From Nocardioidaceae bacterium SCSIO 66511 (lineage in GTDB: Bacteria; Actinomycetota; Actinomycetes; Propionibacteriales; Nocardioidaceae): a stretch of DNA of 64,000 nucleotides. The notes beneath the pieces are model-generated. The model was not told where the DNA came from. It did no database searches and saw only the letters and a program-made list of their open reading frames with translations. The translations under genes were made by a program, and so were the position numbers. Below, in pieces: positions 50,439-53,172 of the stretch; within the stretch, counting starts at the first letter, position 1; each line of letters opens with the position of its first letter. Where the stretch lies: the NCBI GenBank assembly GCA_023100825.1, contig CP095846.1:3968001-4032000 (forward strand), read 5' to 3'.

Positions 50439-51065
50439 TCACTCCGACTGCGTGTAGGCGGCAACAGTCCGCTCTGCGGCGGCCCGGGCGGCATCTGCCG
50501 GAGTTCCGGCCGCTTCATGCGCGTCGGCCCAACTGCGCCCGCTCAGCTCGATGTAGCGGACGCCGTCCGCCGACGCTGACCACGCCATGCCCGCTTCGTG
50601 GCTCCAGGGATCTCCGGTGAGCTCGGCGCCCAGGCCCAACAGACCCAGCTCCCATCCGATACCGACCGCGGCGGGCCCGAACTCCGCCCAATGCTCGCCC
50701 GCGACCGCCAGATGCTCGACGGTGACTCGGGCGTCACCAGAGTCGTCCTCGTCGAAGCGAACGTCGATCCAGCTGACGTCGCCGCCGTACTCCCAGGTGG
50801 CGGTGAACGAGTGCGGCGGCTCGCAGGTCAGCACCTCGCCACCGGCGTTGCCCTCCAGCTGATAATGCCCGCTGACTTTCAAGTCGCCGGTCACCGGTAC
50901 GAGCCATCTCCCAATGCGCTCGGGAGTTGTGCACGCGCTCCAGAGGTCGGCGACCGTCGTGTCGTACGAACGACGAAAACGGACCACCCAACCCTGACCG
51001 GCCTCGAGTACCTGACCGCCGACCTCGCGGCGTACTTCGTTGACCTCGCGGTCGACGTCGATCAT
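50439..51065 (-). CDS. SRPBCC (AHSA1-like) family protein
   Basis: 208 residues. START-like ligand-binding fold: VVRFRRSYDTTVADLWSACT, then TPERIGRWLVPVTGDLKVSG, and TATWEYGGDVSWIDVRF. The C-terminal third adds a helical region (WADAHEAAGTPADAARAAAE). These proteins are commonly paired with ArsR regulators in Actinobacteria. Its ATG overlaps the ArsR stop codon, so the two are co-translated. Ligand unknown. Confidence 0.88.
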   Translation of the reverse strand: MIDVDREVNEVRREVGGQVLEAGQGWVVRFRRSYDTTVADLWSACTTPERIGRWLVPVTGDLKVSGHYQLEGNAGGEVLTCEPPHSFTATWEYGGDVSWIDVRFDEDDSGDARVTVEHLAVAGEHWAEFGPAAVGIGWELGLLGLGAELTGDPWSHEAGMAWSASADGVRYIELSGRSWADAHEAAGTPADAARAAAERTVAAYTQSE

Positions 51066-51433
51066 GATGCGCTCCTCGCTGTATCCGATCGGCTCGATCC
51101 CGCATCGCGGCGTCGGTCCCGCTTGCCGCGCGCGACCTCTGTCGCCAACGCATCCAGCCGGGGCTCCCAGACGGCACGAAAACGGTCGAGCCACGTGTCG
51201 ATTTCGCGGAGCGCGCTCACCTCGATCGAGTAGAGCCGCTTGGCGCCGACGGCGCGTACCGACGCCAACCCGGCATCTCGCAGCACCTTCAGATGCTGCG
51301 ATACCGCCGGTTGGCTGATCTTGAACTCTGCCTGGATGGCCTCGCACATGGCCCCGGAGGACAGTTCTGACTCGGCCAGCAACTCCAATATGCGTCGGCG
51401 AACCGGGTCACCGACTACGGAGAACGCGTCCAC
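51062..51433 (-). CDS. ArsR family transcriptional regulator
   Basis: 123 residues from a GTG. Winged helix-turn-helix (MDAFSVVGDPVRRRILELLA, then ISQPAVSQHLKVLRDAGLAS, VGAKRLYSIE). The CxC metal box of ArsR/SmtB metal sensors is absent, so it is more likely the metal-independent kind paired with SRPBCC proteins. Overlaps the SRPBCC gene (ATGA). A perfect 12-bp palindrome 21 bp upstream of the start is its probable operator. Confidence 0.92.
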   Translation of the reverse strand: MDAFSVVGDPVRRRILELLAESELSSGAMCEAIQAEFKISQPAVSQHLKVLRDAGLASVRAVGAKRLYSIEVSALREIDTWLDRFRAVWEPRLDALATEVARGKRDRRRDAGSSRSDTARSAS

Positions 51434-51472: not shown

Positions 51473-51748
51473 TTAACCGCCCGCGACCGCCGGGATCACC
51501 GACACCTGGGTGCCGTCGGGTGTCGCCGTGTCGAGGCCGTCGGAGAAGCGCACGTCGTCGTTGCCGACGTAGATGTTGACGAACCTGCGCAGCGCACCTT
51601 GCTCGTCGACGACCCGCGCCTTGATACCCGGATAACTGCCGTCAAGCGAGTCGATCACCGCCGAAAGCGTCTCGCCCTCGGCGTCGACCTGAGACTCCCC
51701 GCCGGTGTAGGTGCGCAGGATGGTGGGAATGCGGACGGTCACGCTCAT
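51473..51748 (-). CDS. MoaD/ThiS family sulfur carrier protein (CysO/MetO-like)
   Basis: 91 residues, ubiquitin-like fold: MSVTVRIPTILRTYTGGESQ start, RRFVNIYVGNDDVRF in the middle, and the C-terminal Gly-Gly (VIPAVAGG) that is adenylated and thiocarboxylated. Closely resembles mycobacterial CysO, which supplies sulfur to CysM. Here it follows the threonine-synthase homologue by 17 bp under a SAM riboswitch, which matches the metM-metO arrangement reported in Streptomyces: thiocarboxylated MetO donates sulfur to make homocysteine. Activation by a MoeZ-like enzyme elsewhere is expected. Confidence 0.9.
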   Translation of the reverse strand: MSVTVRIPTILRTYTGGESQVDAEGETLSAVIDSLDGSYPGIKARVVDEQGALRRFVNIYVGNDDVRFSDGLDTATPDGTQVSVIPAVAGG

Positions 51749-51765
51749 AGTGGTTCGCTCCTCGC

Positions 51766-53025
51766 TCAGATCAGATCGGCGGCAGTGAACGCCGAGTACG
51801 TCGGGTCGATCGTCGCAGCCGGACCGACCCGGTCCGCGACGGCGTCGAGTGTCTTCAACCCATCGCCGGTGTTGAACACGACGGTCTCGGCATCCGGATC
51901 GAGCTGGCCGGTATCGACCAGCTTCTTCAGGGTCGCAACCGTGACTCCGCCAGCGGTCTCGGCGAAGATGCCTTCGGTTCGGGCGAGCAGCTGGATACCT
52001 TCGCGTACCTCGTCATCGCTGACGTCCTCGACCGTGCCACCGGTACGTCGGGTGACGTCGAGGACGTACGGCCCGTCAGCCGGGTTGCCGATCGCGAGCG
52101 ACTTCGCGATCGTGTCGGGCTTCACCGGTTGCACGACGTCGTGGCCGTCGCGGAACGCCTGTGCAACGGGCGAGCACCCGGTGGCCTGGGCGCCGAAGAT
52201 CTTGTACGGCGTGTCCTCGACGAGCCCGTGCGACACGAACTCGCGGAAGCCCTTGTCCACTTTGACCAGCTGCGCACCCGATGCGACCGGAATCACCACC
52301 TGCTGCGGCAGACGCCAGCCGAGTTGTTCGGCGACCTCGAAACCCAGCGTCTTCGATCCCTCGGCGTAGTACGGCCGGACATTGACGTTGACGAACGCCC
52401 AACCCTCCTCCTCGCCGGCGATCTCGCTGGCGAGCTTGTTCACGTCGTCGTAGTTGCCGCGTACGGCCACCAGCGTCCCGCCGTACACCGCCGTCGTGAC
52501 GATCTTCGGCCGCTCGAGGTCCTCGGGGATGAACACGACGCTCTTGATGCCGGCCCGAGCGGCGGCCGCGGCGACGGCGTTCGCCAGGTTGCCGGTCGAG
52601 GGACACGCGAGCACGTCGAGCCCGAGCTCGCGGGCTGCGGCGAGCGCGACCGCGACGACGCGGTCCTTGAACGAGTGGGTCGGGTTGCCGGAGTCGTCCT
52701 TCACCCAGAGCTTGCGCAGACCCAGCTCACGCGCCAGGTTGTCGGCCTGGATCAGCCGGGTGAAGCCGGGTTCGACGTTGGGAATCGTGGCGATGTCATC
52801 GCGTACGGGCAGCAGCGACCGGTAGCGCCAGATGTTCTTCGGACCGGATTCGATCTGCTCGCGCGTGATCGGCGGGAAGTCGTACGCGACCTCGAGTGGG
52901 CCGAAGCACTCCAGACAGGCGTAGTACGGACCGAGTTGCTGCTCGGTGCCACAGGCGCGACATCGCAGGTTCGTCGCGTGGCCGAAAGTACCGGTCGTCG
53001 GTGGGGTGTCGATGACTGCGCTCAC
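51766..53025 (-). CDS. thrC: Threonine synthase-family PLP enzyme, candidate MetM homocysteine synthase
   Basis: 419 residues from a GTG. N-terminal zinc ribbon CRACG...CLECF (Cys22, 25, 37 and 40), PLP-binding Lys120 in NPTHSFKDRV, phosphate loop STGNLANA, and C-terminal VFNTGDGLKTLD. By homology it is threonine synthase acting on O-phosphohomoserine. The SAM riboswitch upstream and the sulfur carrier gene downstream instead suggest MetM, a threonine-synthase relative that makes homocysteine from O-phosphohomoserine and a thiocarboxylated carrier. A separate true thrC would then exist elsewhere. GAGGAGGAGG lies before the start; upstream codons of the frame fall inside the riboswitch. Confidence 0.9.
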   Translation of the reverse strand: MSAVIDTPPTTGTFGHATNLRCRACGTEQQLGPYYACLECFGPLEVAYDFPPITREQIESGPKNIWRYRSLLPVRDDIATIPNVEPGFTRLIQADNLARELGLRKLWVKDDSGNPTHSFKDRVVAVALAAARELGLDVLACPSTGNLANAVAAAAARAGIKSVVFIPEDLERPKIVTTAVYGGTLVAVRGNYDDVNKLASEIAGEEEGWAFVNVNVRPYYAEGSKTLGFEVAEQLGWRLPQQVVIPVASGAQLVKVDKGFREFVSHGLVEDTPYKIFGAQATGCSPVAQAFRDGHDVVQPVKPDTIAKSLAIGNPADGPYVLDVTRRTGGTVEDVSDDEVREGIQLLARTEGIFAETAGGVTVATLKKLVDTGQLDPDAETVVFNTGDGLKTLDAVADRVGPAATIDPTYSAFTAADLI

Positions 53026-53037
53026 GAGGGCCTCCTC

Positions 53038-53172
53038 CTCATCTCTCCCGGGCCGACCTTCGGCGCGGGACGGAATTAGCACCATGACCGGCGAGCGCAC
53101 GGAGCGCAGTTGTATCGCTGGCTGGTTGCCGGGGCTTCGTCGGGCCGTATCCCTCTGCCCCTCTTGATGAGC
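53038..53172 (-). promoter_or_regulatory. SAM riboswitch (SAM-I/SAM-IV clan)
   Basis: On the minus strand the leader reads GCTCATCAAGAGGGGCAGAG, then GGCCCGACGAAGCC, CCGGCAACC, and later GGTGCTAATTCC, ending GAGAGATGAG. These are the invariant words of the S-box clan, in order and at normal spacing. P1 is formed by CTCATC (near 53171) and GATGAG (near 53043). The 3' P1 strand abuts the GAGGAGG Shine-Dalgarno sequence of the downstream gene, so ligand binding probably controls translation. It predicts that SAM or methionine supply represses the metM/metO-like genes. Confidence 0.9.

Follow-up and report, generated by a model that had tools for sequence, protein, structure and literature searches.

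In the CysM/CysO system, cysteine is made from O-phosphoserine by beta replacement. In Wolinella succinogenes, a protein thiocarboxylate feeds homocysteine synthesis through HcyS/MetY, in which MetY is a fold-type I enzyme acting on O-acetylhomoserine. A further route, MetM/MetO, was reportedly discovered as a consequence of many Streptomyces lacking the canonical genes. This route was described in Streptomyces albulus (Hasebe et al., 2024, doi 10.1128/aem.01247-24), where a SAM riboswitch lies before metM according to PMC12172450. The same source reports that a Microcystis protein 51.6% identical to MetM produced threonine in vitro, and that its high expression did not raise cell methionine (PMC12172450). 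In S. lividans TK24, a SAM riboswitch is followed by SLIV_16930 and SLIV_16925, a two-gene transcript that the available part of PMC8079986 files under threonine biosynthesis. The route and its riboswitch are already in print for S. albulus, and the locus described here, found in a window of 64,000 nucleotides, is a well-supported further example. Genomic context, distribution and sequence indicate that it is very probably a metM-metO operon under a SAM-I riboswitch, making homocysteine for methionine.

The features of the locus are collected in Table 1. The initial annotation had seen a SAM riboswitch, a threonine-synthase homologue and a Gly-Gly carrier arranged as an operon, and this layout was borne out by RF00162, TIGR00260, Pfam ThiS and the PAVAGG end of the carrier. 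The RF00162 match (gathering score 44.4, E 5.2e-15) is alone in the window in reaching an Rfam gathering score, and it is the single RF00162 match in the 4,609,448 bases of the genome, which is one contig. Mechanical ORF calling places the metM start within the aptamer, at the GTG of position 53100. Translation probably begins instead ten bases past the aptamer, at the GTG of position 53025, which is preceded by GAGGAGGAGG. The metM stop and the metO start are separated by 17 bases. Neither hom nor thrB is among the neighbors of the locus, which are an ArsR gene and a gene for trehalose-phosphatase. Immediately past metO, on the same strand, lie an ArsR-type regulator and an AHSA1-domain protein as overlapping ORF calls (51062-51433 and 50439-51347, minus strand).

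Table 1. Features of the putative metM-metO locus, in window coordinates.
Feature	Position	Strand	Evidence
SAM-I (S-box) riboswitch aptamer, RF00162	53036..53173	minus	cmscan 72.4 bits, full model 1-108
Ribosome-binding stretch overlapping and abutting the 3' strand of aptamer helix P1	53026..53041	minus	sequence GAUGAGGA / GGAGGCCCUC / GUG
metM, threonine-synthase-like PLP enzyme, 419 aa, predicted O-phosphohomoserine-dependent homocysteine synthase	51766..53025	minus	profiles, context, distribution
metO, ThiS/MoaD-fold sulfur carrier, 91 aa, Gly-Gly end	51473..51748	minus	ORF and Pfam

MetM scores 285.7 bits against the NCBIfam threonine synthase model TIGR00260, whose cut-off is 167.1, and also matches Pfam PALP. 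Its predicted structure (pLDDT 89.0) has the threonine synthase fold. The best VIA-align match is Arabidopsis 2c2b (Z 43.5, rmsd 2.6, 400 aligned), bacterial threonine synthases follow at Z 37.5-39.5, and the top rows in Foldseek are likewise threonine synthases. Taken alone, TIGR00260 would name MetM a threonine synthase, which weighs against a role in homocysteine synthesis, as does the threonine made by the Microcystis protein. The passed cut-off and the nearest folds would fit a second threonine synthase, tied to SAM since threonine and methionine share O-phosphohomoserine, with the carrier as an unrelated neighbor. Such a reading could also draw on the longest fold match, 2c2b, being a solved complex with SAM, and on the Microcystis ThrC with its reported identity to MetM and its product in vitro (PMC12172450). 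It nevertheless appears very improbable, given that a normal thrC already exists in a hom-thrC-thrB cluster, that three positions conserved in five solved enzymes are altered in all 86 complete MetM sequences, and that it gives no reason for the complementary metX/metY pattern described below. In addition, SAM-I switches usually turn genes off, which is the opposite of what a SAM-activated branch enzyme of the plant type would need.

The residues in question were compared across the 86 complete MetM sequences, that is, the 88 orthologues of the class survey minus L112 and L120, which run off their contigs; alignment A1 holds 33 of the 86. Four N-terminal cysteines (C22, C25, C37 and C40) are conserved, and K120 of the PTHSFKD motif, the presumed PLP lysine, is invariant. 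Leu147, Arg217, Tyr220, Ser224, Ala248-Ser249-Gly250, Lys255 and Lys308-Ser309 are constant in 86/86. At these columns, the ThrC of the same genome reads Thr, Asn, Arg, Gln, Gly-Asn-Ala, Ala and Thr-Ala. In terms of threonine synthase motifs, the Thr of STGN-T is replaced by Leu147, the Arg before x-E-G by Tyr220, and the first Asn of GN-x-GN by Ser249, again in all 86. The five solved threonine synthases carry Thr, Arg and Asn at MetM positions 147, 220 and 249; three distant paralogues within the class retain the arginine in the Tyr220 column. We take the Arg and Asn of columns 220 and 249 to contact the substrate phosphate in the Thermus threonine synthase, and a literature search returned no paper for this contact. 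As the comparison set comprised the genome's own ThrC, the five solved enzymes and the three distant paralogues, the signature may belong to a broader subfamily with true threonine synthases among its members. A plain threonine synthase was rejected on the basis of the altered positions and the separate thrC.

That separate thrC is 33% identical to MetM and lies between hom and thrB at G000:C1:3,378,625. The initial annotation had suggested looking for a second thrC near hom/thrB, and its presence there means that MetM is not the only threonine synthase homologue of the genome. With a dedicated thrC in hom-thrC-thrB, the genome has separate means of making threonine, and O-phosphohomoserine would come from ThrB. 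The accompanying expectation that the canonical homocysteine genes would be absent did not hold, as metX (PRK00175, 453.8 bits against 331), metY (TIGR01326, 631.9 against 495.1) and a cystathionine gamma-synthase candidate (PRK07811, 654.8 against 513) are all present; for metY, the equivalog PRK08248 was not passed (657.4 against 726). The retention of metY-metX and cystathionine gamma-synthase counts against a strict need for MetM. MetM is not the sole predicted homocysteine route, and deleting metM alone would not necessarily make the cell dependent on methionine. Among the predicted routes in this genome, only metM stands behind a SAM-I switch, and the seven regions of the genome that hold the other pathway genes (thrC, metY-metX, MoeZ, cystathionine gamma-synthase and the CysO trio) contain no Rfam element at gathering score.

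A MoeZ-type E1/rhodanese gene (NF005902, 711.3 bits against 647) precedes metY-metX by about 0.6 kb on the same strand. The metX and metY genes and this gene, the genome's only strong MoeZ-type match, stand close together on one strand (L019:5308-10326), and MoeZ is expected to serve both CysO and MetO. At C1:1.39 Mb, a separate trio encodes a desampylase/Mec-like protein, a CysO-like protein and a CysM-like protein (C1:1,390,785), the Mec-like gene scoring 69.3 bits against NF041370, below the cut-off of 130. This trio bears on a further alternative, namely that MetM catalyzes another sulfur or PLP reaction in which the carrier is the donor, in the manner of CysM/CysO; the product might for instance be cysteine, cysteate or a secondary metabolite containing sulfur. 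MetO does resemble CysO: it is identical to the CysO-like protein of this genome at 47 of 91 positions, and its best solved relatives are 3dwg (listed as culture filtrate antigen cfp10A) and 4n6e, the former of which we take to be CysO of M. tuberculosis. Since that trio stands apart from metM-metO and the SAM switch points to methionine, this alternative is considered highly improbable. Cysteate synthase was rejected as a name for MetM at 73.5 against a cut-off of 324.9 for TIGR03844, and so was an assignment of MetM as the genome's CysM, as the CysM-like gene sits beside the CysO-like gene.

The distribution of metM was surveyed in 118 genomes of the class, evenly drawn at a completeness of at least 90% and including the genome studied here, with MetM, RF00162, TIGR01326 (metY), TIGR01392 (metX) and PF04204 (MetA) as queries. 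metM was counted at E ≤1e-120 and MetA at E 1e-40. Every TIGR01392 match, in the 118 genomes as well as in the 14 controls, fell short of the cut-off of the model, so metX was counted by E-value, leaving out weak MetX-like matches in G017 and G046. Genomes unlisted for a search were taken as absent, and the RF00162 search of the class used stricter filters that lose weak matches. On this basis, metM orthologues occur in 88 of the 118 genomes, all at least 61% identical to the MetM of this locus. A match in G007 (41% identity, E 1.3e-77) and second matches in G058 (37%) and G008 (34%) were not counted. Among the best 80 matches listed from named genomes, the closest relatives reach 82% identity and belong to Nocardioidaceae such as Kribbella. 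A contig titled Spirochaetaceae bacterium (L189) carries a metM 72% identical to the one here and is probably mis-binned.

RF00162 lies directly upstream of metM on the same strand in 88/88 cases, and these account for 88 of the 96 RF00162 matches in the survey. The 20 named loci picked from the best 80 listed, which include Kribbella, Nocardioides, Actinomadura, Streptosporangium, Amycolatopsis and Nonomuraea, all have RF00162 ending at most 80 bases from the matched region. Both metX and metY are missing from 47 of the 88 metM genomes (34/67 at a completeness of at least 98% and contamination of at most 5%). metY is present in 40/88 metM genomes, which weighs against the homocysteine reading, compared with 26/30 genomes without metM (Fisher p 8.7e-05, a guide only as the genomes are related). 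No metM genome contains MetA, both matches falling in genomes without metM. Of these 30 genomes, 25 carry metX together with metY, and metX or metA occurs in 27; the remaining three (G007, G010 and G071) have none of metX, metY and metA. Within one genus of the same family as the locus, G054 carries metM and lacks metX and metY, whereas G079 carries metX and metY and lacks both metM and the switch.

Eight of the 96 RF00162 matches lie away from metM, of which seven were inspected, L210 being too short. A script listing of the ORFs that follow gave nothing usable after L204 and L205 and mixed genes after the others. In three genomes without metM, a metY-like gene stands in the vicinity: 3.5 kb on along the same strand in G002 (L206, where the RF00162 score of 41.1 bits is under the gathering score), 2.9 kb on along the same strand in G056 (L205), and 137 bases away on the opposite strand in G021 (L204). 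By coordinates, no metY-like gene was seen near RF00162 in G027, G048 and G100.

The 88 metM loci of the survey also bear on how the switch may act. The 5' strand of helix P1 reads CTCATC in 88/88, its partner strand GATGA ends 8-20 bases (median 15) upstream of the chosen start codon, and the ribosome site abuts P1 in 88/88. The start codons were chosen by a script near the aptamer by their likeness to a Shine-Dalgarno arrangement, which biases these spacing figures slightly in that direction; the starts of L066 and L076 were corrected, and in L102 and L106 the aptamer ends found by the class search fall short, with the start 257 and 244 bases on. This spacing leaves no space for a separate terminator, and occlusion of the ribosome site by P1 is thus the likeliest mode. 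A transcription terminator as expression platform was rejected, as a simple consensus scan found none between 50900 and 53400. The folding energy of the leader is no lower than that of shuffled sequence (z -0.90; 37/200 shuffles equally stable), and support for the switch therefore rests on the covariance model.

MetO matches Pfam ThiS at 54.8 bits, above the cut-off of 22.5, ends in a plain Gly-Gly (...PAVAGG), and matches the NCBIfam carrier models SAMP1 and moaD_arch below their cut-offs. With TIGR00260 and Pfam ThiS above and these two carrier models below cut-off, the profile scores fit the earlier suspicion that automated annotation would label the pair thrC plus moaD. For the survey, metO was scored as next door when a phmmer match at E ≤1e-3 and 70-130 aa started at most 600 bases away (700 in named loci), which held for 64 of the 88 metM loci and for 59 of the best 80 named loci among the matches listed. 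The metO start overlaps the metM stop (gap -4) in 23 of the 64 pairs, suggesting translational coupling. The 24 loci without a neighboring metO argue against the MetM/MetO reading; two of them run off the contig, leaving 22/86 assessable loci. They cluster in few clades, with at least four state changes on a MetM tree built by a quick method that gave a long-branch warning at the outgroup. These loci, which have metM and the SAM switch with no metO in the downstream stretch covered, are L034, L035, L037, L040, L047, L051-L054, L102, L104-L108, L111, L113-L117 and L119.

From such loci and their repeated changes on the tree, it could be argued that MetM is a homocysteine synthase with no need of MetO in the cell, drawing on free sulfide or on another carrier such as CysO, with its neighbor being incidental. 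We regard this as unlikely, because the majority of loci keep metO adjacent, many of them with the overlapping start, and a metO that is not adjacent may lie elsewhere in the genome. Cells with such loci would need another source of the carrier.

The C-terminal end of MetO varies among the loci. Among the 64 survey proteins, the end is Gly-Gly in 49 and Gly-Gly-Cys in 13, with Gly-Gly-Cys-Ala and Gly-Gly-Ala occurring once each, and the 59 carriers from the best 80 named loci among the matches listed comprise 50 with Gly-Gly, four with Gly-Gly-Cys and five with other residues. The extended proteins are those of L036, L049, L056-L061, L069, L075, L076, L078, L092, L095 and L109 in the survey and nine of the 59 from named loci, including L128, L131, L134 and L168; L128, from Kribbella sandramycini, is one of those with Gly-Gly-Cys. 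All 14 survey cysteines after Gly-Gly are encoded by TGC, and the tail changes state at least seven times on the tree. Mec cuts the CysO-cysteine adduct, and the QbsE carrier of Pseudomonas likewise requires a JAMM protease to expose its Gly-Gly. Since Gly-Gly-Cys imitates the CysO-cysteine adduct, we tentatively propose that tailed MetO in several actinomycete lineages could be an inactive pro-carrier, which the Mec-type JAMM protease that serves cysteine synthesis would have to trim, although we consider this rather improbable. A single base separates TGC from the stop codon TGA, so that a neutral origin of the tail would be easy as well. If true, methionine synthesis would be tied post-translationally to the cysteine pathway, in addition to the SAM switch.

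The proposal of the initial annotation that the locus follows the MetM/MetO homocysteine arrangement is thus supported by the separate thrC, the switch upstream of every metM surveyed, the metX/metY pattern, the changed residues and the presence of MoeZ. In the proposed pathway, the MoeZ-type enzyme would adenylate MetO at the terminal Gly-Gly and then use its rhodanese domain to form the thiocarboxylate. O-phosphohomoserine made by ThrB would be taken up by MetM, a fold-type II PLP enzyme, with elimination of phosphate, and the MetO thiocarboxylate would then deliver sulfur at the gamma carbon to form homocysteine for methionine and SAM. At high SAM, binding to the leader would stabilize P1, the 3' strand of which continues directly into the Shine-Dalgarno sequence, and lower metM translation.

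As metM is present in 88/118 genomes and a curated model labels the enzyme a threonine synthase, actinomycete methionine pathways are likely misdrawn. Within this sample, the constant pairing of metM with SAM-I (88/88) provides a simple re-annotation rule, and the present genome, which has both routes and only metM behind SAM-I, is a natural case for asking why two homocysteine synthases are kept. A literature search that lay outside Hasebe et al. (2024) and covered the tails lightly returned no report of class-wide counts, the P1 arrangement or Gly-Gly-Cys tails. The metM-switch arrangement is not mentioned in the available parts of PMC3766115 and PMC1262725; the latter states that no conserved RNA structure occurs upstream of methionine operons in Actinobacteria, which the RF00162 matches upstream of metM run against.

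Among known systems, the solved threonine synthases 6cgq, 2zsj, 1uim and 2d1f share with MetM a common fold, 32-35% identity and presumably the same substrate, and the genome's own ThrC departs from MetM at the residues listed above. The HcyS/MetY system has a protein thiocarboxylate in common with MetM/MetO and differs in the fold type and the substrate of its enzyme. The CysM/CysO/Mec system of Mycobacterium, the subject of PMC3227635, similarly combines a PLP enzyme with a thiocarboxylated carrier activated by MoeZ; in contrast to metM, this genome's copy of the system (L023) has no SAM switch beside it. The S. lividans TK24 locus is alike in layout, with RF00162 before two genes, as far as the available part of PMC8079986 describes it. 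The closest likeness is to S. albulus MetM/MetO, which has a threonine-synthase homologue with a downstream Gly-Gly carrier and, in front of them, a SAM riboswitch (PMC12172450). The locus described here differs in its host, a Nocardioidaceae-like genome in which metY-metX and a cystathionine gamma-synthase are retained as well.
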